Shown here one piece after another: positions 135-49,134 of a stretch of 61,278 nucleotides of DNA (positions are counted from its first letter, which is position 1; the number at the start of each line of letters is the position of its first letter). The notes under the pieces are model-generated. The model searched no databases. It saw nothing but the letters and a program-made list of their open reading frames with translations, and was not told the origin of the DNA. The translations under genes were made by a program, and so were the position numbers. The DNA is from an uncultured Sutterella sp. (GTDB lineage Bacteria; Pseudomonadota; Gammaproteobacteria; Burkholderiales; Burkholderiaceae_F). The stretch lies in contig UPZS01000008.1 of assembly GCA_900538905.1 (NCBI GenBank), positions 1-61,278 on the forward strand, read 5' to 3'.

Positions 135-479
135 TTAAGGCACCTTCGGGAAATTGAATTTGTGGCACTGTTCGCAGTAGTTCACTGTGGGTTCGTGCTG
201 CATGTGGCACAGCGTGCAGTCTCCGTTGTGCGGAGCGGCGTGCGGATTGGGCTGAAGCTTTTCAGTTTTCTTGGCCATGGCAGCCTTCGGATGGCACTTG
301 ATGCAGGTGTTTTCATCCGGATACACGGGGTTCTTCATGTCGGGACCGTGGCACATTTGGCAAGAAACACCGCGGGCGACGTGACGGTCCGAGCCGAACT
401 TTTCCGCTGCGCTAACCGTGCCGCAGGCGATCAAAGAAGCCAGACCGAGCGAAATCAAAAGTGTCTTCGAAAAAGACAT
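135..479 (-). CDS. periplasmic tetraheme cytochrome c (flavocytochrome c heme subunit)
   Basis: The 114-aa product has a Sec signal peptide (about residues 1-24, cleavage after VSA) and four CxxCH heme motifs at residues 40-44, 59-63, 88-92 and 102-106. Size and heme spacing resemble the N-terminal tetraheme domain of Shewanella fumarate reductase Fcc3, here as a separate polypeptide. Its expected role is to carry electrons from a quinol-oxidising membrane cytochrome to the flavoprotein encoded just upstream (618-2132). The ATG has a good AGGAG ribosome site. It is probably the second gene of a flavoprotein-cytochrome operon, with two stem-loops in the 138-bp gap. The membrane quinol dehydrogenase (CymA/NrfH type) is not in the window. 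Confidence 0.9.
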   Translation of the reverse strand: MSFSKTLLISLGLASLIACGTVSAAEKFGSDRHVARGVSCQMCHGPDMKNPVYPDENTCIKCHPKAAMAKKTEKLQPNPHAAPHNGDCTLCHMQHEPTVNYCEQCHKFNFPKVP

Positions 480-528
480 CGTGAGCTCCTGATACGTTGG
501 TTCTTTTTGTTGGGGAAAAATTCTCTCT

Positions 529-552
529 GACCCGGCACGTCCGTGCCGGGTC
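529..552 (-). other. perfect 11-bp stem-loop between flavoprotein and cytochrome genes
   Basis: GACCCGGCACG (529-539) and CGTGCCGGGTC (542-552) are separated by 2 nt. It lies between the flavoprotein stop and the cytochrome start. There is no immediate U-run, so partial termination or mRNA stabilisation is more likely than full termination. Confidence 0.6.
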
Positions 553-578
553 TAAGAAAACACTCTTATAGGAGATTG

Positions 579-603
579 GAGGGCCGAAAGAAGACCGGCC
601 CTC
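579..603 (-). other. second intercistronic stem-loop
   Basis: GAGGGCCG (579-586) pairs with CGGCCCTC (596-603) across a 9-nt loop, directly after the flavoprotein stop codon on the minus strand. It is in tandem with the 529-552 stem-loop. Confidence 0.5.
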
Positions 604-617
604 TGGGAAAAACCGGA

Positions 618-2132
618 TTACTTGCCGGCAGCCGTACGGGCAGCGGTACGACCGAAGATGATGCAGTCGGCCACAGCAACGGTACCGAGACGAACCATGC
701 CGTGCACGCCGCCGGTGATTTCACCAGCTGCGTAGAGACCCGGGATCACCTGGCCGCGGGCGTTTTCAACCTGGGCCTTGTTGTTGATCACGAGACCGCC
801 CATGCAGTGGTGCACACGCGGCCACAGGCGCACAACGTAGAAGGGGCCGTCGCCGTTCTGGACAGCGTCCTTGAACATCATGCAGTTGAAGTCCGGATCC
901 TTCTGAGCCTTGATGTAGCTGTCGAACTTCTCGTTGGTCTTCTTCAGTTCGTCGTACGGGATCTTGTACGTATCAGCGAGTTCCTTCAGGTTGGCGACCT
1001 TCTTGATCACGCCGTTCTTCATGGCGCGGTCAAACAGTTCCGGCGTCATGTTCTTGCCGATGATCTTGTTTTCTGCGTTCTTGACGCAGGTGTAGATCAG
1101 GGTCGGATGGCCGATGGCAACGATGGCGTCGGCGCGAACCTTACGGTTGCCGGTTTCCTGAATGAAGCGCTTGCCGGTAGCCGGATCAATCATCGGGCCG
1201 TAACCGACAGCGGATTCCACAAAGAGCGGAGCCAGACCGAAGCCGTTTTCATCGGGGCTGGTCCACGGGCCGAGCTGAATCCAGTCCATCTGGATGGTGT
1301 TGGCACCGATCATCTGAGCAGCCTGCAGAGCGTCGCCCGTAGCACCCGGATGGTTGGTGGAGCCGAACTTCTCGTTCAGACGCGGATCGTGTTCCATACG
1401 CATCTGGACGTTCTGGCTGAAGCCGCCGGCGGCGAGCAGAACACCTTTGGTGGCGCGGTAGTAGGCAACCTTGCCGGACTTTTCACGGCCGAAGCGATAG
1501 TTTTCGCGGACCTTGACGCCGAGCACAGCGCCCTTGTCGTCAACAACGAGGTCATCGACGATCGTGCGCAACTGCACGGGGATGCCGTATTCCTGGCACT
1601 TCTTGTACATCGGGTTGATGAAGCCGGAACCGGAGTTATTGGTCACGGCATGGCTACGGGGTACGGAGTGACCGCCGTGGAAGGTGACGGCCTTGAACTG
1701 AACACCGACCTTCTTGAGCCATTCGTAGTTTTCAACGGAGCTGTCGGCGATGTGGCGTGCGAGTTCGGGGTGAGCCAGACCGCCGCCTGCCTTCATGATG
1801 TCCTTGTAGAGGAGATCGGGATTGTCCTTGATACCGGCAGCCTTCTGCATGTCGGTACCGGCAGCAGCCACGGCGCCGCCGTTGATGATGGAGTTGCCGC
1901 CGTAGGAAGGCATCTTGTCGATGACGAGGACGTTCTTGATGCCTTGTTCGTGGGCTTCAATGGCAGCGCCCAAACCGGCAAAACCCGTACCGACAATCAG
2001 GAAGTCAACTGTTTTGTCCCACTTGGCGGGAACCTTCACGGTCTGCGCAAGAACGGGGGCAGACACAACGCCGGCGGCACCGGCGGCAGCCAGAGAGCCG
2101 AGGAAGCTGCGGCGGGAAAGACTATTGGTCAC
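618..2132 (-). CDS. Tat-exported FAD-dependent reductase (flavocytochrome c / fumarate-reductase superfamily), substrate unknown
   Basis: The 504-aa protein begins with a Tat signal (SRRSFLG, residues 5-11, then a hydrophobic stretch to about 30). It continues with an FAD-binding GTGFAGLGAA motif near 48-57 and an FAD_binding_2 domain. Aligned by eye to Fcc3, the catalytic arginine is kept (R330, in GNRKVR), as are the paired histidines (441-442) and the RLG arginine (R481). The substrate-clamping histidine of fumarate reductases (QAHPT) is replaced by LGP (G288), and the Thr-Glu pair reads V-E (305-306). It is therefore unlikely to be a plain fumarate reductase; an unsaturated monocarboxylate (methacrylate, acrylate or cinnamate type) is possible. 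There is no heme domain; electrons should come from the neighbouring tetraheme cytochrome. The start is GTG with an AAGGAG site. Confidence 0.85.
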   Translation of the reverse strand: MTNSLSRRSFLGSLAAAGAAGVVSAPVLAQTVKVPAKWDKTVDFLIVGTGFAGLGAAIEAHEQGIKNVLVIDKMPSYGGNSIINGGAVAAAGTDMQKAAGIKDNPDLLYKDIMKAGGGLAHPELARHIADSSVENYEWLKKVGVQFKAVTFHGGHSVPRSHAVTNNSGSGFINPMYKKCQEYGIPVQLRTIVDDLVVDDKGAVLGVKVRENYRFGREKSGKVAYYRATKGVLLAAGGFSQNVQMRMEHDPRLNEKFGSTNHPGATGDALQAAQMIGANTIQMDWIQLGPWTSPDENGFGLAPLFVESAVGYGPMIDPATGKRFIQETGNRKVRADAIVAIGHPTLIYTCVKNAENKIIGKNMTPELFDRAMKNGVIKKVANLKELADTYKIPYDELKKTNEKFDSYIKAQKDPDFNCMMFKDAVQNGDGPFYVVRLWPRVHHCMGGLVINNKAQVENARGQVIPGLYAAGEITGGVHGMVRLGTVAVADCIIFGRTAARTAAGK

Positions 2133-2179
2133 TTTGTTTCTCCTTCACTTTGAACAAGTGTTTCGTAGTTTGGTCGAAC

Positions 2180-2196
2180 GGTTGATTTTGACAACC
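2180..2196. promoter_or_regulatory. candidate operator upstream of flavoprotein gene
   Basis: GGTTG-N7-CAACC lies about 50-65 bp before the GTG start of the flavoprotein gene. Its left half, TTGAT, resembles an FNR half-site but the right half is poor. It could be a site for the nearby Crp/Fnr-type regulator; this is only a position-based guess. Confidence 0.3.
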
Positions 2197-2373
2197 TCTT
2201 CAACCTTCTGACGGTCAGTTTAGGACTAGTCAAAAAGGAGAGATACCCCTCTGCAAATAGGCTTAAACTAGGGTTTTTACGGACCAAAAATGGCGTTAAA
2301 CCTCGGTTTTAAAAAGGTTTTTCTAAGGCTTAGGTGAACAATTGATCGGAGGTACGTCACAGTATGTACCTAC

Positions 2374-2407
2374 AAAAACGCACACCCCCGAAACGAAGAT
2401 GTGCGTT
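2374..2407 (-). terminator. intrinsic terminator of the porin gene
   Basis: AACGCACA (2377-2384) and TGTGCGTT (2400-2407) form an 8-bp stem. On the minus strand the stem is followed by a short U-run. It is about 40 bp past the porin stop codon. Confidence 0.7.
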
Positions 2408-2447
2408 GATCATCGGTCATGCGTTCATACCGAACGCAAGAGACGGA

Positions 2448-3629
2448 TTAGAAGCGATGCAGGATGCCGGCGGTGAATTCAAAGCCGTACGGCGTGGCTT
2501 CTTTGTTAGTGCGATTGTTTTCAACCTTTTCCTGAGTGAAACCGGTCATCGCAAAGAGGCTCGTACGCTTGGAGAGCGGATAGTCGTAACCCAGAGCCAC
2601 GAACCAACGGCTGAAGTCGACATCCTTCGTGTTGTCCATGTCGCGGTAGGCGACCTGACCCTTAATGGTGCCGCCGCCCAACGGATAGTTGGCGCCGAGG
2701 CTCAAGCCGTAGCCATCCACGAAGCCGTATCCATCGCTACCGTTTTCGATGTTACCTTGCTTGGCGGTTATCCAGTTCACGCCATCCAGAGTGACACCGG
2801 CACGAGCGTTGGTGTTGAGCCACTGATCCTTGAAGTACTGCGCAAAAGCGATCAGTTTGAAACCGTTGCTGAATTCGTAGTTGCCGCCGAGGGTGACGGT
2901 AAAGCCGTTGTCGACATCTTCTGTTTCATGATCGGGATTATCCACAGAACCATATATCGTCATGTCAGCCACCAGGACAGCTTCCAGACCGCCGTTCTGG
3001 TAACGCAGGGCGAGAGAAGCATAACGGTTTGACTCAGCTTCACTTTCTTCTGCATCCGTTGTGCCATCGTTCTTGAACGAGTACATCGCATAGCCCGTCA
3101 AGCCGGCAAATGTCGGGGTGACGTAGCTGATGGCGTTATCGACGCGCGTCCAGTCGGAGGCGGTGACGGAACCGGAGCCAAATGCGAAGGTGTAGTTGGC
3201 AAAGAGCGGGTCAATGGCGCGGAACAGGCCGTCGGCACCGAGCACGCTGCCGAACAGCGGCATGCGGCCGAACTGGAACTTACCGAACTTGGTGTGCAGG
3301 TCGATATGCGATTCGCGGTCGAAGATACGGCCGGTGTCGCGGGCTGCGCCCAGAGCACCGGTATCGGAACGGAAGCCGGATTCAAGCACGAAGCCGACCT
3401 TGAAGTCCGGGCTGATTTCTTCCATGCCGCGCAGACCCCAACGGGAACCGAATTCCTTGCCTTCTTCCATCGAGAACTGGTTCTTCGTTTCAGCTCCGTC
3501 GTAGTCGCCGTTGCTGCTCGTGAACATCAGAGCGGGGTTGATCAAACCGTAGATTTCGACATTGGCCGCAGTCGCAGAGCCGGCAACGAACGCGCCGAGC
3601 ACCGACATGGCGATCAAAGACTTTTTCAT
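2448..3629 (-). CDS. outer-membrane general porin (Gram-negative porin family)
   Basis: The 393-aa protein has a Sec signal peptide (1-21), a mature start ANVEIYGLINPAL typical of betaproteobacterial trimeric porins, alternating beta-strand texture, and a C-terminal phenylalanine (GILHRF) as required for BAM-mediated insertion. It should form a 16-strand diffusion channel. It lies between two periplasmic-reductase genes and next to a Crp/Fnr regulator, so it may admit their anionic substrates; that link is inferred. The promoter region has a clear -10 and two AAGGGGTAAA repeats. The ATG has an AAAGGAG ribosome site. Confidence 0.9.
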   Translation of the reverse strand: MKKSLIAMSVLGAFVAGSATAANVEIYGLINPALMFTSSNGDYDGAETKNQFSMEEGKEFGSRWGLRGMEEISPDFKVGFVLESGFRSDTGALGAARDTGRIFDRESHIDLHTKFGKFQFGRMPLFGSVLGADGLFRAIDPLFANYTFAFGSGSVTASDWTRVDNAISYVTPTFAGLTGYAMYSFKNDGTTDAEESEAESNRYASLALRYQNGGLEAVLVADMTIYGSVDNPDHETEDVDNGFTVTLGGNYEFSNGFKLIAFAQYFKDQWLNTNARAGVTLDGVNWITAKQGNIENGSDGYGFVDGYGLSLGANYPLGGGTIKGQVAYRDMDNTKDVDFSRWFVALGYDYPLSKRTSLFAMTGFTQEKVENNRTNKEATPYGFEFTAGILHRF

Positions 3630-3794: not shown

Positions 3795-4634
3795 CTACTT
3801 TGGATGCGTTTCCGCAAGGATCTTTTTGAGCGGATTGCGGTACAGATCGCTGGAGCGTTCTTCAATGTTTCGTAGCCAGCGATGCACCGGCAACATGCAT
3901 TCGAGCTTGATCAGAGCGCTGTCGTTTTGCGGGATGTAGTTACCGGAACTCTTGAGATTTCCCAGAGCGCGCTCAAGCGCGGCTGCCGAACAGTTGACGA
4001 CGAACTGCAGCGCTTCGCCGCGCAGCGGCGCCGGCACGCGAATCCACGAGGTCCCGTCGATGACCTCTTCGCGACCGAACGCAACCGTCCAGGTGATGAA
4101 ATAGGCCAGTAAACGATCTTCAACGCCAAGCATCGTATGCACACCGAATCCCAGACGATCCGACAGATTCATCAATTCGAATTCTCGGGCCACAATCATC
4201 AGCATTTCCGGGTCTTTTTCGCAAAGACTGTAGAGAAGCGACTGGGGAACACTGATGACAACGCTTGGCACAAGGGCGTAGTAGCTGCCGACACAGGGGC
4301 GATGCGAAAAGAAATTAAGGTTGCCGCATGCCAGGCGTCCGGGAATGGAAAACGCCATGCCGGGCTGTTTGACGCCGTAAATGGAACCGAAGCAGCGTCC
4401 GGTAATGCCGGATTTAACCATGACAAGCTTGTCGACTTTGTCGCTGACGTGTCCGAGCACGGGTTCGTTGGCTCCTAATTCCGTTTCTACACCCCAGCGT
4501 TCGATCAGGGAACGAATTCGGGAGTGCAGCGGCGGGGCGAGCCACGGATAGGAAGGAATAGAGTAAGTATCGTCTGTCAGACGATTTCTAAAAACCCCGA
4601 TTTCCTTGAGCCAGCTAGAGGAAGGCGGACGCAT
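3795..4634 (-). CDS. Crp/Fnr-type transcriptional regulator (divergent)
   Basis: The 279-aa product (from the ATG at 4634, preceded by AAAAGG; a TTG at 4664 would add 10 residues) looks like a Crp/Fnr protein. A beta-rich effector domain covers about residues 45-150, a long dimerisation helix about 150-200, and an HTH-like segment about 205-255. The FNR N-terminal cysteine cluster is absent, so it should not hold an oxygen-sensing [4Fe-4S] cluster of FNR type, and I could not see a clean cAMP pocket. It is divergent from urdA and next to the porin, which makes these genes the likeliest targets. The family call rests on overall shape rather than a strong motif. Confidence 0.7.
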   Translation of the reverse strand: MRPPSSSWLKEIGVFRNRLTDDTYSIPSYPWLAPPLHSRIRSLIERWGVETELGANEPVLGHVSDKVDKLVMVKSGITGRCFGSIYGVKQPGMAFSIPGRLACGNLNFFSHRPCVGSYYALVPSVVISVPQSLLYSLCEKDPEMLMIVAREFELMNLSDRLGFGVHTMLGVEDRLLAYFITWTVAFGREEVIDGTSWIRVPAPLRGEALQFVVNCSAAALERALGNLKSSGNYIPQNDSALIKLECMLPVHRWLRNIEERSSDLYRNPLKKILAETHPK

Positions 4635-4696
4635 GTTTGGCCTTTTGTTGTTAAAAAACTTCAAAGATTCCTGCGGTAAGAAATCGAAAAATCATC

Positions 4697-4990: not shown

Positions 4991-5041
4991 TTTGTTGCTA
5001 ACTGCATCAAACTGTCTGTTTACTACAGAGGGGAAATAGAT

Positions 5042-6799
5042 ATGCGTTTTTCTCGCGCTTTGGTTGCCGGGTTGGTTTGCTTGGCTTTTGCAGCCACCGT
5101 ATCGGCAAGTCCTGTGACGACACAGGGTTCCGGTGTTGGCAAGCACGGCGACGTGACTGTTGCCGTGACTTTTGACGGCGGCAAGATCAAGGACATCAAG
5201 ATCGTCAAGCAGCAGGAAAATCCTGTGCTCGCCGCTAAGGTCTTCACGGATCTCAAGCAGCACGTCATTGACACGAATTCCGTGCAGCTCGACGCCATTT
5301 CCGGCGCTACTTTCTCGTCTAAGGGGTTCCTGGACGCTGTGGCCGATGCCGCCAAGAAGGCCGGCGTAACGCTCAGCAAGGCCGATAAGAAGGCGATCAA
5401 GAAGGTTGTCAAGGCTTTGCCGAAGGAGTCGTCCTATGACGTGGTCGTGATCGGTGCGGGCGGTGCAGGTTTCTCCGCTGCGATTGAAGCTAAGAATGCC
5501 GGCGCCAATGTCGTCCTGTTGGAAAAGATGCCCGCTGTCGGCGGCAACTCTTTGATTTCCGGCGCTGAAATGAACGCAGCTAAGAATTGGGTTCAGCCTA
5601 AGCTCGGCATCAACGACGACTCGCCGGAACTGCACGCCAAGGACACCTATCTCGGCGGTGACAAGAAGGGCGATCCCAAGGTGATCAATGTGTTGACGCA
5701 CAACGCCCTTGACGCTGCCAAGTGGTGCCGTGACTACCTCGGCGTTCGCTTTGAAGACGACAATCTCTTCTTCTTCGGCGGGCACTCCCGTAAACGCGCT
5801 CTGATTCCGATTGGTCACACTGGTACGGAATTCATCACCAAGTTCCAGGCTAAGGCTGATGAATTGGGCATTCCCGTCATCACCAACATGAAGGCTGAAG
5901 AACTCATTAAGGATAAGAGCGGTCGTGTCGTTGGCGTCAAGGCGACGATGAACGGGGCTTCCTACACCTTTAACGCCAAGGGTGGCGTGGTGCTTGCAAC
6001 GGGCGGCTTCGGTGCCAATCCTGAGATGGTCAAAAAGTACAACCCGAAGATTGACGAGCGCTTCAAGACGACGGATGCTCCGGGCACAACGGGTGAAGCT
6101 CTCTATATGGCCGAGCGCGCGGGTGCCCAACTTGTCAACATGGGTTACATCCAGACCTATCCGATCTGCGACCCGATTTCGGGTGTAATCGAACTGATTG
6201 CGGACGCTCGCTTTGACGGTGCCATCATGCTCAATCAGGAAGGCAAGCGCTTTGTGGAAGAACTGCAGCGCCGTGATGTTCTGTCCGAAGCCATCCTGAA
6301 GCAGACCGGCGGCTACTGCTGGGTGCTCTGGAATGACAAGATCGGCTCGATTTCCAATACCGTCAAGGAACATCCGACGGAATACGAAGCCTTCACCAAG
6401 CAGGGCATTATGGCAACCTGCGACGATCTGAAGTGCGTGGCCGACTTCACGAAGATTCCGTTTGACAGCCTCAAGGGCACGATTGATCGCGTGAGTTCCA
6501 TGACGGGCAAGGGCAACGATAAGGATTTCAACCATCGTTCCGGCTTGCTCGACATGACGCAGGGCAAGTACTACGTCATCAAGGCCGTGCCGAGTGTGCA
6601 CCACACAATGGGCGGCGTGCGCATCAATGAGAAGGCTCAGGCTCTGACGGCCGAAGGCAAGGCGATTCCGGGTCTTTGGGCGGCCGGTGAGGTCACGGGC
6701 GTAACGCACGGTACGAACCGCCTCGGCGGCAATGCATATACTGACATCATCGTGTTCGGTCGCATTGCCGGTAAGGCAGCGGCCGAAGCGGCGAAGTAA
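5042..6799 (+). CDS. urdA: urocanate reductase UrdA
   Basis: The 585-aa flavoprotein has a Sec signal (1-22), an FMN_bind domain (about 25-110) with the ApbE flavinylation motif DAISGAT (84-90; T90 is the expected covalent FMN site), and an FAD_binding_2 reductase domain (132-585, GAGGAGFSAA near 138). Fumarate reductases have QAHPT; this protein has QTYP with Y373. It also has D388, R411, H520 and R560, matching in identity and number the active-site residues I recall for Shewanella UrdA. It should reduce urocanate to imidazole propionate as a terminal electron acceptor in the periplasm. There is no heme domain, so electrons must come from another cytochrome or an FMN-domain donor. The ATG at 5042 was chosen for its signal peptide and AGAGGGGAAA site. 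Confidence 0.92.
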   Translation: MRFSRALVAGLVCLAFAATVSASPVTTQGSGVGKHGDVTVAVTFDGGKIKDIKIVKQQENPVLAAKVFTDLKQHVIDTNSVQLDAISGATFSSKGFLDAVADAAKKAGVTLSKADKKAIKKVVKALPKESSYDVVVIGAGGAGFSAAIEAKNAGANVVLLEKMPAVGGNSLISGAEMNAAKNWVQPKLGINDDSPELHAKDTYLGGDKKGDPKVINVLTHNALDAAKWCRDYLGVRFEDDNLFFFGGHSRKRALIPIGHTGTEFITKFQAKADELGIPVITNMKAEELIKDKSGRVVGVKATMNGASYTFNAKGGVVLATGGFGANPEMVKKYNPKIDERFKTTDAPGTTGEALYMAERAGAQLVNMGYIQTYPICDPISGVIELIADARFDGAIMLNQEGKRFVEELQRRDVLSEAILKQTGGYCWVLWNDKIGSISNTVKEHPTEYEAFTKQGIMATCDDLKCVADFTKIPFDSLKGTIDRVSSMTGKGNDKDFNHRSGLLDMTQGKYYVIKAVPSVHHTMGGVRINEKAQALTAEGKAIPGLWAAGEVTGVTHGTNRLGGNAYTDIIVFGRIAGKAAAEAAK

Positions 6800-42116: not shown

Positions 42117-43247
42117 TTAGTGAGCCGGCAAGCCGTTGCGGCTTCTGTAATGCAGTGACGAGCCGAAGTGATGCCGTCCGATGACGCGCCCTGTGACGGC
42201 TTCCAATTCTTGCTCAAGCAGGATATTGCTGTCGGGTTCGGACTCGGTGCCTTGCTTATTGTCGTAGAGCTGATAACTTGCGCGCGTACGTTGCGGCGTG
42301 ACGTTGGGCATGATCACGTTGCAGCCGGAGAGAACACCAAGCGACCGGCCTCCGGTGACCAACGTTTCCAGGGCTGTGGCGGCAGCCATATTGACGGTGG
42401 GAAGCGCCAGGCGCGTTGCGGCGAGCATGTTGCGAGTGAGCGTGAGGAGCGCATCTTTTTGCATCATGCCGTCAGCCACCATGTCTCCGCCGTGACTTAC
42501 CAGATAGGGCCCCATGCCGAGCATGTCGGCGTCAAGTTCCTCAAAGGTGCGGATATCTCGAACTAAATCTTCCAAACTCTGGCCTGGAATGCCGATCATT
42601 ACGCCCGTGCCGACTTGATAGCCGAGCTTGCGAAGCGTCGCCAGCGCTTCAAGTCGAGCGGGCCATGTTTTTTGGGCACCGCCTTTGCCCGAGTGCAGAT
42701 AGTTAAAGAGCTTGAGATTGCTTGTTTCGATGCGAAGCAGATAGCGCAAAGCCTTACGGTTGCCTGCCGCTTGCGCCCAACGCTCATAGGTTTCTTCGGT
42801 TTGTTCGCCGAAACTGAGAGTCACGCCGCAACCCTCGGCAATGCCTTCTTTAACGCTCATACGGTGGATGCGACGCAAAACATCTTCGACAAAGGCGATG
42901 AATTTTTCATCCGTGCGCTCGCCCGCCTGCAGTGCGACGGATCCGTAACCTGCACGAACCGCATAACGAGCCGCTTCGACGATTTCCTCTGGAGTCAGGG
43001 TATAGCGCTGTGCAAGGCGGTTTCCCTTGCGGATTCCACAGTAACGGCAGTCGTAGATACAGTAGTTGCTGATTTCAATGAGGCCTCGAAACCACAGTGC
43101 GTTGCCGTGAACACGGGTCGTGCGGTCATAGGCTTCGCGCCACAGACGAGAACAACACTCAGCATCGGTTAGTGACAAAAAGGCCAGCAGTTCTTCGTCG
43201 GAGAAAGTGTCTTTGGCAAGAACGGATTCAAGCGTTTGTAAGTTCAT
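42117..43247 (-). CDS. hydE: [FeFe] hydrogenase maturase HydE (radical SAM)
   Basis: The 376-aa radical SAM enzyme has the CxxxCxxC cluster in NYCIYDCRYCG (C63, C67, C70), RGLIEISNYC before it, and QAGERTDE and GIPGQSLEDLVRDI as in HydE/biotin-synthase-like proteins. HydE helps build the dithiomethylamine-bridged diiron site. It starts 9 bp after the hydF stop, so hydF-hydE form an operon. Confidence 0.92.
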   Translation of the reverse strand: MNLQTLESVLAKDTFSDEELLAFLSLTDAECCSRLWREAYDRTTRVHGNALWFRGLIEISNYCIYDCRYCGIRKGNRLAQRYTLTPEEIVEAARYAVRAGYGSVALQAGERTDEKFIAFVEDVLRRIHRMSVKEGIAEGCGVTLSFGEQTEETYERWAQAAGNRKALRYLLRIETSNLKLFNYLHSGKGGAQKTWPARLEALATLRKLGYQVGTGVMIGIPGQSLEDLVRDIRTFEELDADMLGMGPYLVSHGGDMVADGMMQKDALLTLTRNMLAATRLALPTVNMAAATALETLVTGGRSLGVLSGCNVIMPNVTPQRTRASYQLYDNKQGTESEPDSNILLEQELEAVTGRVIGRHHFGSSLHYRSRNGLPAH

Positions 43248-43256
43248 ACGGCACGA

Positions 43257-44576
43257 TCAGAAATGGTTGGCGAAGATTTCGCGAGCTTCATGAAATGCCT
43301 TCAGGGCTTTGGGGTGCAGTTCAAGCGCACGTTCGAGTACGCCTTGCAGGTGGCTGATTGCTACGCCGTAGTTGGTCATAGGGATGTTTTGACGCTTGGC
43401 CTGAGCCAAACGCGTGAGCATATGGCGGCGAGTGACGACGCAGCCGCCGCATTGCAGAATGAGTTTGTAAGGCGTGAGGTCCACGGGGAAGTCTTTGCCG
43501 ACTACAACTTCAATGTCGAGTTCTCCGCCGACTTTTTTAGCGAGCCAGCGAGGTAGTTTTTTACGGCCGATGTCATCTGGCTGAGGATGGTGAGAGCACG
43601 TCTCGCAGATCATCACTTTGTCGCCGGGACGCAGAAAGTCGATCATGGCTGCGCCGCGTGCCATCTCAACAAGGTCACATTTGCTGTAGGCCATCTGAAT
43701 CGAGAAGGTCGTTACCGGAATAGTTTTCGGCGTTTGCGCAACGACCGACTGCACCACCTGACTGTCGGTTACGACAAAGGCGGGCGGTTCTTTTTCGTTG
43801 GTCAATGTTTCGGCCAGACGGTTTTCACGCACAACGATACATTTGGCGTCGGCATCGAGTACTTCGCGTATGGCTTGTACTTGAGGAAGAATCATGCGCC
43901 CTTTGGGTGCGCCGGTGTCGATTGGGGTGACAAGCATCACGGTATCGCCCGGATGCACTAGATCACCCAACAATGGAAGGTCCGGCTCCACGGCATTTTG
44001 CGCGAGCTTTACGATGGCTTCACGCACGGCATCGATATTGAGCTTTTGACTGGCGCACACGGTAACCGGCTCATAACCCAATGAACGTACCTGCTCCTGC
44101 GTGGCGATCAGTTCTTTGGCATCGGCCGTATCGGCTTTGTTTAAGACAACGACGGTGGGCGTAGCCGTGCTTTTGACGGTTCGAATGAGTTCAAGTTCGC
44201 TTTCAGTAAGTGCTTTGGCGTCACAGACGATTAGTGCCACATCAACCCAACCCAGTACGGCCAAGGATCGCTCCGTACGAAGTCCGCCTAGTTCGCCAAC
44301 GTCATCGACACCTGCGGTATCAATGAAGACAACCGGTCCGATCGGTGCCAGCTCGCAGGCCTTTTCGACTGGGTCGGTAGTGGTTCCGGGCACATCGCTC
44401 ACAATGGCGATTTTTTGATTAGTTAGCGCATTGATAAGAGAACTTTTGCCGGCGTTGCGTCGACCGAAAAGGCCGATGTGAAGACGAAGTCCCTTGGGTG
44501 TTTGAGTGCGGGAAGCGATGCCGATGACCGGAGCAGACATATCTGTAAGGGAGAGTGGAAGGTTAGAAAATTTCAT
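43257..44576 (-). CDS. hydF: [FeFe] hydrogenase maturation GTPase HydF
   Basis: The 439-aa scaffold protein has the GTPase P-loop FGRRNAGKSSLINAL, DVPGTTTDPVEKA, IDTAGVDDVGELG and LNKADTAD. The C-terminal cluster region shows CETCSHHPQPDDIG and LQCGGC as [4Fe-4S] ligands. ATG 44576 has a weak AAGG; ATG 44540 (427 aa) is an alternative. The open frame continues upstream to 44918, but that stretch crosses the terminator and overlaps the cytochrome b gene, so it is not used. Confidence 0.92.
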   Translation of the reverse strand: MKFSNLPLSLTDMSAPVIGIASRTQTPKGLRLHIGLFGRRNAGKSSLINALTNQKIAIVSDVPGTTTDPVEKACELAPIGPVVFIDTAGVDDVGELGGLRTERSLAVLGWVDVALIVCDAKALTESELELIRTVKSTATPTVVVLNKADTADAKELIATQEQVRSLGYEPVTVCASQKLNIDAVREAIVKLAQNAVEPDLPLLGDLVHPGDTVMLVTPIDTGAPKGRMILPQVQAIREVLDADAKCIVVRENRLAETLTNEKEPPAFVVTDSQVVQSVVAQTPKTIPVTTFSIQMAYSKCDLVEMARGAAMIDFLRPGDKVMICETCSHHPQPDDIGRKKLPRWLAKKVGGELDIEVVVGKDFPVDLTPYKLILQCGGCVVTRRHMLTRLAQAKRQNIPMTNYGVAISHLQGVLERALELHPKALKAFHEAREIFANHF

Positions 44577-44613
44577 CCGTTTGAAGGCCTTGATTGTAGA
44601 GCCGCCAGACAGG

Positions 44614-44656
44614 TAAAAAAAATCCCGCTCGAAGGATTTTCTGTCTTTCGAGCGGG
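44614..44656 (-). terminator. terminator of the hydrogenase structural operon
   Basis: CCCGCTCGAA (44624-44633) pairs with TTCGAGCGGG (44647-44656). On the minus strand a run of eight U follows. It separates the structural genes from hydF-hydE, which must then have their own promoter. Confidence 0.85.
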
Positions 44657-44666
44657 CTATCGGACG

Positions 44667-44690
44667 GCAAGCCTGACAAATCAGGCTTGC
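44667..44690 (-). other. second stem-loop after the cytochrome b gene
   Basis: GCAAGCCTGA-CAAA-TCAGGCTTGC is a perfect 10-bp stem with a 4-nt loop, between the cytochrome b stop and the terminator at 44614-44656. Confidence 0.6.
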
Positions 44691-44703
44691 TGCAAGCGCA
44701 ACC

Positions 44704-45378
44704 TTACTTTTCGATGTTGGTGCGGATGACGTCCTTTTCGAGCCACACGGGCGAGTGGTGTTCAGCAGCTTCCCAGCTGATGTCACCGGTGCCGATGCGC
44801 CAGATGCCGAGGAAGTGAGACATCGACAGCAGGGCGAGCGGGATGTGAGCGCAGACCACGAGCACGGTGATGAGGAGCGAACCCCAGACGTGGAGGTACC
44901 ACATCGTAAGGAAGGCATCCTTACCGATGGCCGGAGCGAACACCCACAGCAGCCAGCCGGTGACGATGAGCATCACGATGGCAGCGGTGAAGAGCAGGTA
45001 AGAAGCTTTCTGGCCGGCGTTGTAGCGGCCCTGCGGCGTAACCTCAACCGGACCGAACGGGATCTTGAAGAAGCGACGCGGGTAGCCGCCGAAGTTGCGG
45101 AACCACAGGATCGTGTTCTTATCCCAGATCAAGCAGGCATTGATCATCAGCGCAAAGCGTTCGGGGGCGAACAGGAGATAGCCCACGAGGTTGAGCGTGA
45201 AGACGATGCCGAGGCCGACGTGCCAAGCCATGAGGCTTTCACCCGTAGCAGCTTCGGGCTTGCAGAGGTAGACGATAGCGCCGGTAATGACGAGCGCAAA
45301 CCAAAGAATTGCGTTAAGACCGTGGAAGACCTTATCGGCAACATGGAAGCGCAAAATGCGGTCGTTGTGATTGGCCAT
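44704..45378 (-). CDS. cytochrome b subunit of hydrogenase/formate-dehydrogenase type
   Basis: The 224-aa membrane protein has four hydrophobic helices (about 20-38, 52-70, 127-148, 160-185). Histidines suited to bis-heme ligation are H12/H19 near helix 1, H53, and H163 or H178. It is of the FdoI/HydC class that carries electrons between a periplasmic enzyme and menaquinone. It lies 18 bp downstream of the hydrogenase small-subunit gene with an AAGGAGG site, so it likely anchors the hydrogenase to the membrane and quinone pool. Confidence 0.85.
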   Translation of the reverse strand: MANHNDRILRFHVADKVFHGLNAILWFALVITGAIVYLCKPEAATGESLMAWHVGLGIVFTLNLVGYLLFAPERFALMINACLIWDKNTILWFRNFGGYPRRFFKIPFGPVEVTPQGRYNAGQKASYLLFTAAIVMLIVTGWLLWVFAPAIGKDAFLTMWYLHVWGSLLITVLVVCAHIPLALLSMSHFLGIWRIGTGDISWEAAEHHSPVWLEKDVIRTNIEK

Positions 45379-45396
45379 GATTGCGACCTCCTTTAA

Positions 45397-45732
45397 TTAG
45401 TGGTGAGCGGAAAGCTGCGTACGCTGGAAGTAGTGCGTGTGCAGCAGACCGTACATGGTGTTGTCCATCGGAGCGGCGCCAAGATCAACATAGATCTGAC
45501 GCACGACGGGGTTCTGATGCGAGCTTGTCAGATTCATCTTCTGGCAGAGCTTGTCATCGGCGTAAAGCCCCTTCTGACGGGCAAGCAAAACGGAGTTGCG
45601 GTTCGCGAGCAGATCGCCGACAGCCCAACCGGTGGCACCAGCGGCGACAGCGCAAAGACCCACAACCTTAAACAGACCGCGGCGGCCGAGAATGACACTC
45701 GCCGGGCGTTCTTCAAACTGGTAAACGGACAT
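45397..45732 (-). CDS. periplasmic [FeFe] hydrogenase small subunit (Tat signal)
   Basis: The 111-aa protein has a Tat signal (GRRGLFKVVG at about 16-25 with hydrophobic AVAAGATGWAVG) and a short helical body (LYADDKLCQKM...NPVVRQIYVDLGAAPM). This is the Desulfovibrio-type small subunit (Fe_hyd_SSU) that wraps the catalytic subunit. The catalytic subunit lacks a signal, so it is probably carried through Tat with this one. It lies between hydA and the cytochrome b gene. Confidence 0.88.
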   Translation of the reverse strand: MSVYQFEERPASVILGRRGLFKVVGLCAVAAGATGWAVGDLLANRNSVLLARQKGLYADDKLCQKMNLTSSHQNPVVRQIYVDLGAAPMDNTMYGLLHTHYFQRTQLSAHH

Positions 45733-45761
45733 TTGTGTGTTCCTTTCTATCGGCTAATGGG

Positions 45762-47120
45762 TTAGAGGCTCACGGGGAGCGGGAACAAGGGCTTGAGCCA
45801 GCCGGTGCCGGTGCCCTGGACAGGCTGACCGCCGCCGTTGACGCAACCGCCCGGGCAGTTCATCACTTCGATGAAGTGCCAACGATTCGGATTGCCACGC
45901 AGTTCGTCAAGAACGTGTTCGAGAGCCTGGTTGGCGCCGTTAACCACACAAACGCGCAACTCGAAGGTCTTGCCGTTCAATTCGGGCAGAGCAAGCGGAA
46001 TCTTGGCTTCAACGTAGCTGTTGTCGAGGCCGCGCACCGGGATGATGTCGGCGTTGTCGAGTTCCTTGCCCATCAGGACGCGGTAGGCCGTACGCAGAGC
46101 AGCTTCCATCACGCCGCCGGAGCAGCCGAAAATGGTACCGGCGCCGGTGTAGACGTCGAGATTTTCGCGCTTGCGTTCCTTCGGGAGCGTGAGCGGATTG
46201 ATATTGTGACGACGCAGCAGTTCGGCAATGTCACGGGCGGTGAGCACGGCGTCAACGTCAGGGAAGCGCGGCGTGTCGGCAGGAATCGTGCCGGCCTTGA
46301 TGTGATGGCGCCAAGCGGTGTCCATTTCGGGACGGCTGGCTTCGAGGATCTTGGCCGTGCAGGGGGTGATAGCCACAACCTTGACGTTGCGAGGATCTGT
46401 GTTGTAGAGGAACTTCGGAGCCCACACCTTGGCGAGCACGCCGCCCATCTGAATCGGGCTCTTGGCCGTGGACAGATGCGGTAAGAAGTCGGCGTTGAAA
46501 GTTTCGGCGTTGCGAACCCAAGCCGGGCAGCAGCTCGTGAAGTGCGGCAGCGGATGGTGAGCAGCGCGTTCGAATTCGGGACCGCGCTTGCCGAGCACCC
46601 AGTACTGAACCTTGCGCACGAATTCCGTGCCTTCTTCCATGATGGTCTGGTCAGCGGAGCTGTTGACGTCGTAGGTCTTGAAGCCCAGTTTTTCAAAGGC
46701 GTTCATCATCTGATCGGTGGTGAGATCGCCGGGCTTGCCGCCGAATTCTTCGGCAATAGACACGCGAACGGCCGGGGAGGGGTGAGCCACCACGACGTTG
46801 CTCTTGTCAGCGAGCATTTTGTCGACCGTGTCCACAAAGCTCATCTGTTCGATGGCATTGAACGGGCAGCTGATCAAGCACTGACCGCAGGTCACACAGC
46901 GCTGATCGTCAATCTTGTGCTTGGCGCCAAGATGACCCTGAATGGCATCGACCGGGCAGACCTTGCGGCAAGTATCGCAGGCTTCGCACAGGTCTTGATT
47001 GATTTTGATGATGCCGCGCAACTCGCCTTTGCGGATGTTGCCGACAAAATCGGGGCCGTTCAAACCGAAGGAATCTGCCGTCGGATTGAACGTCTTGATT
47101 CTGATGGTTTTTGCACTCAT
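45762..47120 (-). CDS. hydA: [FeFe] hydrogenase catalytic (large) subunit
   Basis: The 452-aa group-A type enzyme has two [4Fe-4S] ferredoxin motifs (CEACDTCRKVCP at 45-56, CVTCGQCLISCP at 75-86), then the H-domain. H-cluster cysteines are C198 (TSCCP), C254 (TPC), C422 and C426 (NCPGGC). The proton-path residues C197, E162/E163/E166 and S217 are present. The usual MPC motif reads TPC (T252), and FGATGG reads FGCSGG. It has no signal of its own; export with the Tat small subunit is expected. The ATG has an AGGAGA site. The direction (uptake or evolution) is not fixed by sequence; the cytochrome b partner favours uptake. Confidence 0.93.
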   Translation of the reverse strand: MSAKTIRIKTFNPTADSFGLNGPDFVGNIRKGELRGIIKINQDLCEACDTCRKVCPVDAIQGHLGAKHKIDDQRCVTCGQCLISCPFNAIEQMSFVDTVDKMLADKSNVVVAHPSPAVRVSIAEEFGGKPGDLTTDQMMNAFEKLGFKTYDVNSSADQTIMEEGTEFVRKVQYWVLGKRGPEFERAAHHPLPHFTSCCPAWVRNAETFNADFLPHLSTAKSPIQMGGVLAKVWAPKFLYNTDPRNVKVVAITPCTAKILEASRPEMDTAWRHHIKAGTIPADTPRFPDVDAVLTARDIAELLRRHNINPLTLPKERKRENLDVYTGAGTIFGCSGGVMEAALRTAYRVLMGKELDNADIIPVRGLDNSYVEAKIPLALPELNGKTFELRVCVVNGANQALEHVLDELRGNPNRWHFIEVMNCPGGCVNGGGQPVQGTGTGWLKPLFPLPVSL

Positions 47121-47574
47121 CTTTAGGGATCTCCTGTTCTTTTAAAAAGGGCGCAGAGCCTGATTCGAGACAGAGCTGTCAAACGCCGCTTTCGCTGGTG
47201 CCGAGAAACCGAAACGAACCCATCCGCGGCAATTACAACAATTGCCTCGGACAAAACACAGAAAATCAAAACAGGGTTGTCGCGGCTTAGGGGAGGAACA
47301 CAAAGAGACGGCTTCGCGTTCCGGCACTCGCGCGGGTCGATTTTATAGGCAACAGACGCGAAAAACTAGGCATTTCAGAAGATGGACGGTAAAGAAAAAG
47401 GATAGGAAGGAAGGAGATCGGAGGGTCATCCGAAAGTTTGATTTAGAACAAATTGCTTGCGAACAGAAAGATTTCGTAAAGGAAAAAAGCTTTAAAAACA
47501 AAAGGATGACCTTTATTTGTCATGAGTTCTGCCTATGAAATTGAGAAAAACCGGAAAAAGGACCTGAAAACTAT

Positions 47575-47590
47575 TACTCCCAAAGGGGTA
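47575..47590. promoter_or_regulatory. TACTCCC-AA-AGGGGTA element (NarL-type 7-2-7 geometry)
   Basis: Two inverted heptamers separated by 2 bp resemble the NarL/NarP 7-2-7 arrangement (one half, AGGGGTA, fits exactly). It lies about +22 to +37 of the proposed hydA transcript. The same AGGGGTA word occurs twice in front of the porin. Confidence 0.35.
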
Positions 47591-47617
47591 GATTGAGCTA
47601 GGGCAGAAGTAGCAATC

Positions 47618-47660
47618 AGTCTATTTTGGCGCGGTGTGGCAAAAGTTTGATTTATGTCAA
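47618..47660 (-). promoter_or_regulatory. candidate FNR-dependent class II promoter for the hydrogenase operon
   Basis: TTGATTTATGTCAA (47647-47660) matches the FNR consensus TTGAT-N4-ATCAA at 9 of 10 positions. On the minus strand TAGACT (complement of 47618-47623) is a possible -10 whose centre is 33 bp from the box centre, the spacing of a site at about -41.5. Transcription would start near 47612, leaving a leader of about 490 nt. Confidence 0.55.
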
Positions 47661-47726
47661 AAATGCTGCAAAGTTTCAGCGCAACGGAGTGTTAGGTCAA
47701 GAACCGTTTCAATGTGGAAACGTGCA

Positions 47727-47754
47727 AGAAAAAGGCCGCCTAAAAGAGGCGGCC
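47727..47754 (-). terminator. terminator of the radical SAM gene
   Basis: GGCCGCC (47734-47740) and GGCGGCC (47748-47754) flank a 7-nt loop. On the minus strand a U-rich tract follows (TTTTTCTTG). It is 22 bp after the gene's stop codon. Confidence 0.8.
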
Positions 47755-47775
47755 ACAGAGCAGGTGCGCAAATAA

Positions 47776-49086
47776 TCAGCAATCGATATCACGAAGCGGT
47801 TTTCTGAGTTCGGCGCGAACGTTATCCATACCGGAGTAGAAGGCTTTCATCATGACGAGCCCCAGGAATTTTCCCGCGTCGGTCACAATCAGGTTGTCGG
47901 GATCTTCCGGGTTGTCCTTGATAGCGCCGGCGATGCGGAGTCCGAGCATTTCCTTAAAAAGCGCCTTGTCGAGATCAACGCCGTGAACTTCACGGAAATA
48001 CTTGCGGGACAGGCGAGCCGAGAAGAGTCCCAGAAGCAGGCGATACTGCAGTACGGCGTGCTTGTCGAATTGGCGACGGCGCTCTACACCGGTTTTCCCT
48101 TCTTTGATGCGCTCGTTGTAGCGGCGCAGGCTGAACGTGTTGACGTAGAGACTGCTGCCCAAGAACGAGAAAGCGCCGGAACCTACGCCCAGATATTCGT
48201 CGTGGTCGACCACGTACTCGTCAAAGCCTTCGTCGTGCGTGCGGCCAAATGTCCAACTCGTAAGCTGACGGTAGTGGTTGCCGAGCGTGTTCATGATCAC
48301 GGCATATTGATCGGCAAGCTCAATACCCTTGGCGGCGATTGTCTGCTTGACGCTCTTTCGAGTCTGGCTTGTGACCATCAGCGGATACGTCGTGATCTGG
48401 CGCGGATTGAGTTCCACAAGCAGATCCATGTCGCGCTGCAACATTTCGAGATCCTGACCGCGGAAGCCGAAGATCATGTCGACATTGGTCGTCGGGAAGA
48501 GCTCAAGCGCTTCCTGCAAACGCTCGTAGATCAGAGCGCCGGAACCGAACTTGTCGTAGCGCTCGGTCATCTTGAGAATGTCGTCGTTAAAGCTCTGCAC
48601 GCCGATGCTCATGCGGTCCACGAGCCCCTTGAGATTGCGGAACGTAGGGGTGGCAATTTGCAACGGATCGGTTTCGCACGACACTTCTTTGATGCTTGGG
48701 AAAAGCGTGCGGGCGTGTTCAATCGTGCGGATGAGCTCGTCTTCGAGAATCGTTGTCGTGCCCCCGCCGATGTACATACTCGTAAAGTCGTAGCCGAGCG
48801 CTTTGACATAGTCCATTTCCTTGCGCAGGTTCACAAAGTATTCGCGTGCCTTGTGTTCCTTAAACAGGAAGCGGTGGAAGGTACAGTATGAGCAAAGCGT
48901 CTTGCAGAACGGAATATGGGCGTAGAGCAGATATTGGTGACCGGGCTGCGGTTCCGGCGGTCGGTCGAGAACGACGGGATCGCAGTTGAGATAACGGTCG
49001 ATGTAGTACTGCATGATTCGGTCGGTGAGGTTGATCATCCAGTTGGGCATCAACTTGCCGATGCGAACCTGAGGCTGTTCAGTCAT
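47776..49086 (-). CDS. radical SAM protein, coproporphyrinogen III oxidase-like
   Basis: The 436-aa protein has the radical SAM cluster in IPFCKTLCSYCTF (C61, C65, C68), the GGGTTT motif for SAM binding and the SIGVQSFND segment of the HemN/HemW/HutW group. The fourth HemN cysteine is replaced by F (CTF). It could be an anaerobic coproporphyrinogen oxidase or dehydrogenase, a heme chaperone, or a heme-degrading enzyme. It is not HydG, despite lying beside the hydrogenase locus. ATG 49086 was preferred because ATG 49128 falls in the loop of the preceding terminator. Confidence 0.75.
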   Translation of the reverse strand: MTEQPQVRIGKLMPNWMINLTDRIMQYYIDRYLNCDPVVLDRPPEPQPGHQYLLYAHIPFCKTLCSYCTFHRFLFKEHKAREYFVNLRKEMDYVKALGYDFTSMYIGGGTTTILEDELIRTIEHARTLFPSIKEVSCETDPLQIATPTFRNLKGLVDRMSIGVQSFNDDILKMTERYDKFGSGALIYERLQEALELFPTTNVDMIFGFRGQDLEMLQRDMDLLVELNPRQITTYPLMVTSQTRKSVKQTIAAKGIELADQYAVIMNTLGNHYRQLTSWTFGRTHDEGFDEYVVDHDEYLGVGSGAFSFLGSSLYVNTFSLRRYNERIKEGKTGVERRRQFDKHAVLQYRLLLGLFSARLSRKYFREVHGVDLDKALFKEMLGLRIAGAIKDNPEDPDNLIVTDAGKFLGLVMMKAFYSGMDNVRAELRKPLRDIDC

Positions 49087-49099
49087 AACTTCGAAAAAC

Positions 49100-49134
49100 A
49101 GAAAAGACGGCTGCACGAGTTTTGTCATGCAGCC
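49100..49134 (-). terminator. terminator of the acyl-CoA synthetase gene
   Basis: On the minus strand GGCTGC and GCAGCC (complement of 49129-49134/49109-49114) flank a 14-nt loop and are followed by a U-rich tract. It begins 55 bp after the upstream gene's stop. Confidence 0.6.

Follow-up and report, generated by a model that had tools for sequence, protein, structure and literature searches.

The gene at 5042-6799 on the forward strand of the window (the whole 61,278-nucleotide stretch of DNA that was analysed) very probably encodes UrdA, a periplasmic urocanate reductase; from the open reading frame, PDB match, Pfam domains, residues, alignment and tree we put this at roughly 0.9. The identification had been proposed in an earlier note made from the letters alone, and it was supported here by the active site, the domains, the similarity and the tree. 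With its 585 residues the product adds another member to an enzyme family already described. UrdA turned up in 25 of the 67 family genomes reached from G001 (E <= 1e-150); the family includes gut commensals. The product of the enzyme, imidazole propionate, is tied to type 2 diabetes (PMC7921117). The supplier of urocanate would decide how much of it forms, and a lyase without the MIO motif was found beside urdA in some of the relatives.

The urdA gene and its active site

A Shine-Dalgarno-like AGAGGGG (5027-5033) stood just 5' of the ATG. A Sec-type signal peptide of about 22 residues (5042-5107) was read by eye at the N-terminus of the translation, from which a periplasmic location is predicted. 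Pfam placed an FMN_bind domain at residues 33-104 (5138-5353; 3.1e-16) and the FAD_binding_2 catalytic domain at residues 133-564 (5438-6733; 2e-79), all on the forward strand, and found no haem domain in the 585-residue protein, as the earlier note had read it. The motif DAISGAT, which that note had also picked out, lay within FMN_bind at residues 84-90 (5291-5311) and is what we take to be the flavinylation motif, with the expected site of covalent FMN. Promoter and terminator scans of the window returned nothing above chance.

Using phmmer, the best PDB match was UrdA of S. oneidensis (6t85) at 587 bits, followed by the fumarate reductase Fcc3 at 299 bits. The protein scored 486.5 bits (cut-off 285.45) with NCBIfam TIGR01813 (flavo_cyto_c), a broad subfamily that also takes in the other flavin reductase of the window, so that membership alone does not mean UrdA. 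Alignment to the Shewanella enzyme, a check which the earlier note had suggested, gave 58.5% identity over 453 aligned residues, which excludes chance resemblance, and the pocket residues were all kept.

The structure paper on UrdA (PMC7921117) names Tyr373, Asp388, Arg411, His520 and Arg560, the same five residues, under the same numbering, that the earlier note had given, and all five were at those positions in the translation. It adds Glu177, Phe243, Phe245, Arg390, Phe391 and Gly563, and the window protein has every active-site residue named in the available parts of that paper; Shewanella Glu177 is matched by E176 in the window, the alignment being offset by one residue N-terminal to it. 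According to the same source, the carboxylate of urocanate is contacted by R560, G563, R411 and H520 and its imidazole by E177 and D388, under a lid formed by F243, F245 and F391. UrdA is set apart there by Y373, F391 and an alanine at the position of Fcc3 E377, the tyrosine at 373 in place of the fumarate-reductase histidine being its mark in both PMC7921117 and PMC7676231. In the window protein the substrate segment, residues 366-411 (6137-6274), holds Y373, A387 (at the Fcc3 E377 position), D388, R390, F391 and R411; it is followed by H520 (6599-6601), which binds the substrate carboxylate, and R560 (6719-6721), which forms a salt bridge with it (roles from PMC7921117). With G563, and with a motif-bearing FMN_bind domain joined to an FAD domain and no haem domain, the protein has the features by which UrdA was recognised here.

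Twelve active-site positions (F243, F245, Y373, A387, D388, R390, F391, R411, H520, H521, R560 and G563) were compared with S. oneidensis UrdA at 20 named Sutterellaceae urdA loci (L001-L020, including the same-genome pairs L005/L014, L008/L015 and L016/L017) and were identical at all 20. Glu was present at 176 in every UrdA row displayed from Sutterellaceae. The twelve positions were also kept in each of 12 UrdA-like proteins picked among the matches listed (the best 120), and Glu176 in 11 of these, P0250 having Gln.

By homology with Shewanella UrdA, electrons would first reach the FMN attached covalently to the N-terminal domain and then FAD, and a hydride from FAD N5 together with a proton from Arg411 would convert urocanate to imidazole propionate. 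The carboxylate would be held by Arg560, Gly563 and His520 and the imidazole by Asp388 and Glu177, with the Phe243/Phe245/Phe391 lid over the urocanate and Tyr373 in the place of the fumarate-reductase histidine. Urocanate may in this way serve as a terminal electron acceptor.

Lyases beside urdA and the source of urocanate

HutH over the cut-off was found in nine of the 67 family genomes and UrdA in 25, and no genome had both. The search for hutH which the earlier note had called for was thus empty in all 25 UrdA-bearing relatives; HutH pieces below the cut-off occurred in G066 and G048, both without UrdA. Urocanate is therefore probably not supplied by a canonical HutH of the same cell. No hutU was found in 10 relatives.

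A gene of the histidine ammonia-lyase (HAL) family, here LY1, adjoined urdA in 10 of the 25 UrdA-bearing genomes (G001, G004, G008, G027, G052, G053, G055, G056, G059 and G060, the copies in G001 and G060 being broken), and an eleventh copy in G028 was cut by the contig end. The only HAL-family gene of the UrdA genome G006 belonged to a second group, LY2, and lay away from urdA; no HAL-family match at E <= 1e-3 was found in the other 14 UrdA genomes. At the 20 named urdA loci a lyase neighbour was present at five (L001, L007, L010, L012 and L014), partly from the same genomes as the ten; the upstream flank of urdA is missing from L011.

Eight full-length lyases adjoining urdA scored 248-291 bits with the HutH profile TIGR01225, against its cut-off of 539.15. 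The best PDB match of LY1 was ergothionase (265.7 bits; next HAL, 155.6). The LY1 protein P0188, counted in 1000 contigs and named histidine ammonia-lyase by one source, likewise matched ergothionase best (260.7 bits), ahead of a tyrosine aminomutase-type chain (146.8) and HAL (141.9), and one lyase of a third group, LY3, scored 191.4 bits with ergothionase versus 124.5 with the next. On alignment with ergothionase and HAL, the MIO residues Ala-Ser-Gly were absent in all nine readable LY1, in 9 of 9 LY2 and in both LY3 aligned (four LY3 were found), and present in all nine HutH over the cut-off. LY1, LY2 and LY3 show a one-residue deletion at the MIO site, as does ergothionase; P0188 and P0162 read GSIGDADITLASH at this stretch, which was not readable in the G060 copy or the G028 fragment. 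At the column we take to be HAL E414, LY1 has Glu and ergothionase Gln. In the lyase tree LY1, LY2, LY3 and ergothionase were split from HutH at 100/100, the ergothionase branch of 2.45 carrying a long-branch warning, and in the best tree LY2 was not monophyletic. Those LY1 and LY3 lyases of the relatives that were run against the PDB are of the ergothionase type in the sense that they belong to the HAL family, have no MIO and are nearest to 6s7j. LY1 itself (examples L116-L120, L125, L014, L010 and P0188) is MIO-free and ergothionase-like, with a signal peptide by eye. Two tandem LY3 lyases, also without Ala-Ser-Gly and reading GSEGANDL or GSQGVNDL at that stretch, follow an FAD reductase and a tetraheme cytochrome at L151:5866-9467 (G008:C13; also L044 and L045).

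Judged by these sequences, the "hutH" beside urdA in the relatives is unlikely to be a histidine ammonia-lyase of the textbook kind. In a 2026 preprint (PMC13320830), six species were tested and all urdA-encoding strains, Parasutterella excrementihominis included, converted urocanate to imidazole propionate. P. excrementihominis also formed it from labelled histidine, and hutH, called by BLASTp, is described there as co-localised with urdA in Burkholderiaceae. BLAST surveys counting hutH together with urdA could misassign these species. The UrdA protein P0325 (uncultured Parasutterella sp.) is that of G056 (100% over 478 residues; 74% to the window protein), and in G056 the MIO-free lyase beside urdA was the sole match to the HAL family. 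On the strength of this one named protein G056 belongs to Parasutterella, and G055 is placed there by similarity. If P. excrementihominis resembles G056, its conversion of histidine is unexplained by textbook HAL chemistry; the conversion also counts against a betaine-only substrate for LY1. Should P. excrementihominis follow its genus in this, an MIO-free enzyme deaminating histidine would be new enzymology. Alternatively, a betaine (hercynine or ergothioneine) may be the true substrate, in which case imidazole propionate would be linked to trimethylamine and histidine would be converted by another route. No report of MIO-free lyases beside urdA was found among the matches listed in the literature searched, within the portions of those papers available. 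This context is the new part of the present analysis, its newness being judged from that search alone, and it concerns the relatives and not the window.

The lyases also bear on the substrate of UrdA. Although the pocket, to go by its sequence, could accept thiourocanate or another imidazole acrylate, and anaerobes of the gut feed on thiourocanic acid (Zhou et al. 2025, cited in PMC13405746), it is unlikely that the natural substrate is thiourocanate formed from ergothioneine, or thiourocanate and urocanate together, instead of urocanate alone. The lyases adjoining urdA in 10 of the 25 genomes, MIO-free in the nine that could be read, and their closeness to ergothionase, the best solved relative of LY1, speak for such a substrate. 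The compared pocket positions, however, match those in the urocanate-bound crystal structure of S. oneidensis UrdA (PMC7921117), P. excrementihominis forms imidazole propionate whether given urocanate or histidine (PMC13320830), and the urdA-linked lyases keep Glu where ergothionase has Gln. Urocanate is retained as the most probable substrate.

In the window a lyase or lyase remnant was ruled out, the best tblastn match across the 61 kb having an E value of 2.5, and no HAL-family match at E <= 1e-3 was found in the syntenic relative G002. As no urocanate source was recognised in the window or in this relative, we infer that the lineage takes up urocanate from neighbours, diet or host. With reductases but no lyase, the window probably relies on urocanate from elsewhere; the lineage most likely uses what others make. 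Among the best 120 matches of each search, UrdA proteins of the 97%-identity cluster and LY1 proteins came from single contigs of the same size (4,637, 82,062 and 114,565 bases), which suggests indirectly that UrdA and the lyase share one contig in that cluster. Some close relatives may therefore produce the substrate themselves, and the presence of the lyase seems to vary among such relatives.

Neighbouring genes and a possible route of electrons

On the reverse strand before urdA lie a divergent 289-residue protein that is a probable regulator (3795-4664; Crp-like by eye only, with no Pfam match, and placed by synteny), a porin (2448-3629; Porin_4 by Pfam, and in the same place in L002), a second flavin reductase without an FMN domain (618-2132) and a tetraheme cytochrome c (135-479; Cytochrom_c3_2 by Pfam, four CXXCH by eye). 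The second reductase, recognised by NCBIfam, Pfam, alignment and tree, has an RRSF Tat-like start by eye and reads QLGPWTSPDE at the UrdA-373 segment, and is therefore not UrdA. The porin, Tat-type FAD reductase and tetraheme form a set without a lyase (135-3629) that is kept in L002.

The closest named urdA loci were those of Sutterella massiliensis (91%) and of L002, a Duodenibacillus MAG (90%). L002 was colinear with the window, all eight genes compared standing in unchanged order (tetraheme, FAD reductase, porin, regulator, urdA, pyrE, MFS, ptsI), the GC content being 0.553 in the window versus 0.602 in L002. Among the 20 named urdA loci, no other had a match to the regulator, which in L002 lies in the same place and is 79% identical. 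The window organism is accordingly taken as a Duodenibacillus-like member of the Sutterellaceae, and its relatives point to a gut habitat.

The tetraheme cytochrome had been put forward as a candidate electron donor for UrdA, and it does lie within 5 kb of urdA in a position kept in L002; its gene is nonetheless the last of the porin-FAD reductase-tetraheme set, on the opposite strand to urdA. A match to it (E <= 1e-8) was found at only 2 of the 20 named urdA loci, L002 and L014, in both beside such an FAD reductase. Eight lyase-linked UrdA loci (L116-L120, L125, L014 and L010) were examined, and no multihaem ORF was present in the fetched stretches of seven, the eighth being L014, where it stands beside such a reductase; an FAD reductase and a four-CXXCH ORF occurred together at 11 of the 12 LY2 and LY3 loci. 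Since the tetraheme recurs with the FAD reductase and is mostly absent at lyase-linked urdA loci, it was assigned to that reductase, of which it is likely the partner, and not to UrdA. It is a poor candidate for the UrdA donor, a role that we consider very doubtful.

The order FAD reductase, tetraheme, lyase was found at all nine LY2 loci (L146-L150 and L152-L155), with a window-like porin next in six. Of three LY3 loci, L151 and L156 had an FAD reductase and a four-CXXCH ORF (the L156 cytochrome being known from the CXXCH count only) and L157 had neither. As a control, no reductase was found in the four fetched stretches from the nine HutH loci. The LY2 partner reductases were 44-46% identical to the window FAD reductase and differed at several pocket positions, so that the latter probably has another substrate; its pocket differs from those of both the LY2 and the LY3 partners. 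These reductase-tetraheme-lyase clusters are probably other respiratory modules of elimination and reduction.

A cytochrome of the NapC/NrfH type (PF03264) was present in all 12 relatives searched, and ApbE, for which the earlier note had proposed a search, in 10 of 10. UrdA might accordingly receive electrons from quinol by way of the NapC/NrfH-type cytochrome, and its FMN might be attached by ApbE. Separately, Pfam identified a radical SAM gene, HydF, the large subunit of an iron-only hydrogenase and a second radical SAM gene at 42117-49128. The set resembles an [FeFe]-hydrogenase accompanied by its maturases, which is unusual in a betaproteobacterium, and is a possible source of electrons.

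Combining these observations, we would give about even odds to a broader reading, in which Sutterellaceae respire in two periplasmic steps, elimination followed by reduction. An MIO-free, ergothionase-like lyase would split off an amine from a derivative of histidine: most likely trimethylamine from hercynine or ergothioneine or, more radically, ammonia from histidine itself despite the missing MIO. The flavin reductase encoded beside it would then take the resulting (thio)urocanate as terminal acceptor. LY1 would be paired with UrdA, and LY2 and LY3 with an FAD reductase and tetraheme. The "hutH" of the preprint in Burkholderiaceae would be the MIO-free lyase, and the window lineage would have kept the reductase halves and live on the acids of others.

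Paralogues and comparison with known systems

Paralogues were taken from 18 fetched stretches together with L091 and L092. Five of them (UrdA2: L126, L127, L128, L091 and L092; 55-61% identity) have the UrdA pocket save for A387D and G563S; the other 15, of lower identity, have H at 373 in 14 cases and N in one. In a 54-row tree, from which the partial G064 was left out, UrdA and UrdA2 were split from the remainder (fumarate-reductase types) at 99/98. In the best tree UrdA without UrdA2 was not a single clade, UrdA2 joining the Sutterellaceae rows with weak support (84/62), and UrdA appeared as one group in 17% of 200 bootstrap trees. The earlier note had named a position outside the UrdA clade as an outcome that would tell against it; the window protein fell on the side of UrdA and UrdA2. 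Identity as a fumarate reductase was ruled out by the pocket residues and this split. That the protein merely resembles UrdA and reduces another acrylate (fumarate, cinnamate-type or similar) is highly improbable despite the size of the superfamily (14-47 matches at E <= 1e-30 in each of 10 relatives, mostly without assigned substrates), as the protein has D388, F391 and the Phe lid and not the H373 and G391 of fumarate reductases, and the tree separates the two at the support given.

Among known systems, ergothionase of Treponema denticola (6s7j) was the best-scoring PDB match for those LY1 and LY3 lyases that were compared, all from relatives and none from the window. They share with it the one-residue deletion that removes MIO and a Leu at the HutH Tyr column, and differ in the signal peptides of the Sutterellaceae lyases (by eye), in the long branch and in the Glu of LY1 in place of Gln at the E414 column. 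The Parasutterella UrdA, known from whole cells of P. excrementihominis (PMC13320830), is of the same family and has the same residues as that of the window; in G056, and in G055 (87% identical to P0325), an MIO-free lyase comes right after urdA, whereas the window is without one. Fcc3 shares the catalytic fold and the equivalents of R411, H520 and R560, but has H at 373 and is without D388, F391 and the Phe lid, all of which, with Y373, are present in the window protein; it also has a haem domain where UrdA has the FMN domain (PMC7921117). The closest counterpart is UrdA of S. oneidensis (PDB 6t85-6t88), a periplasmic enzyme with covalent FMN on its N-terminal domain (PMC7921117). Both have the FAD and clamp domains and all the named active-site residues, and they differ in the extent of sequence identity given above and in the Sutterellaceae host of the window enzyme.
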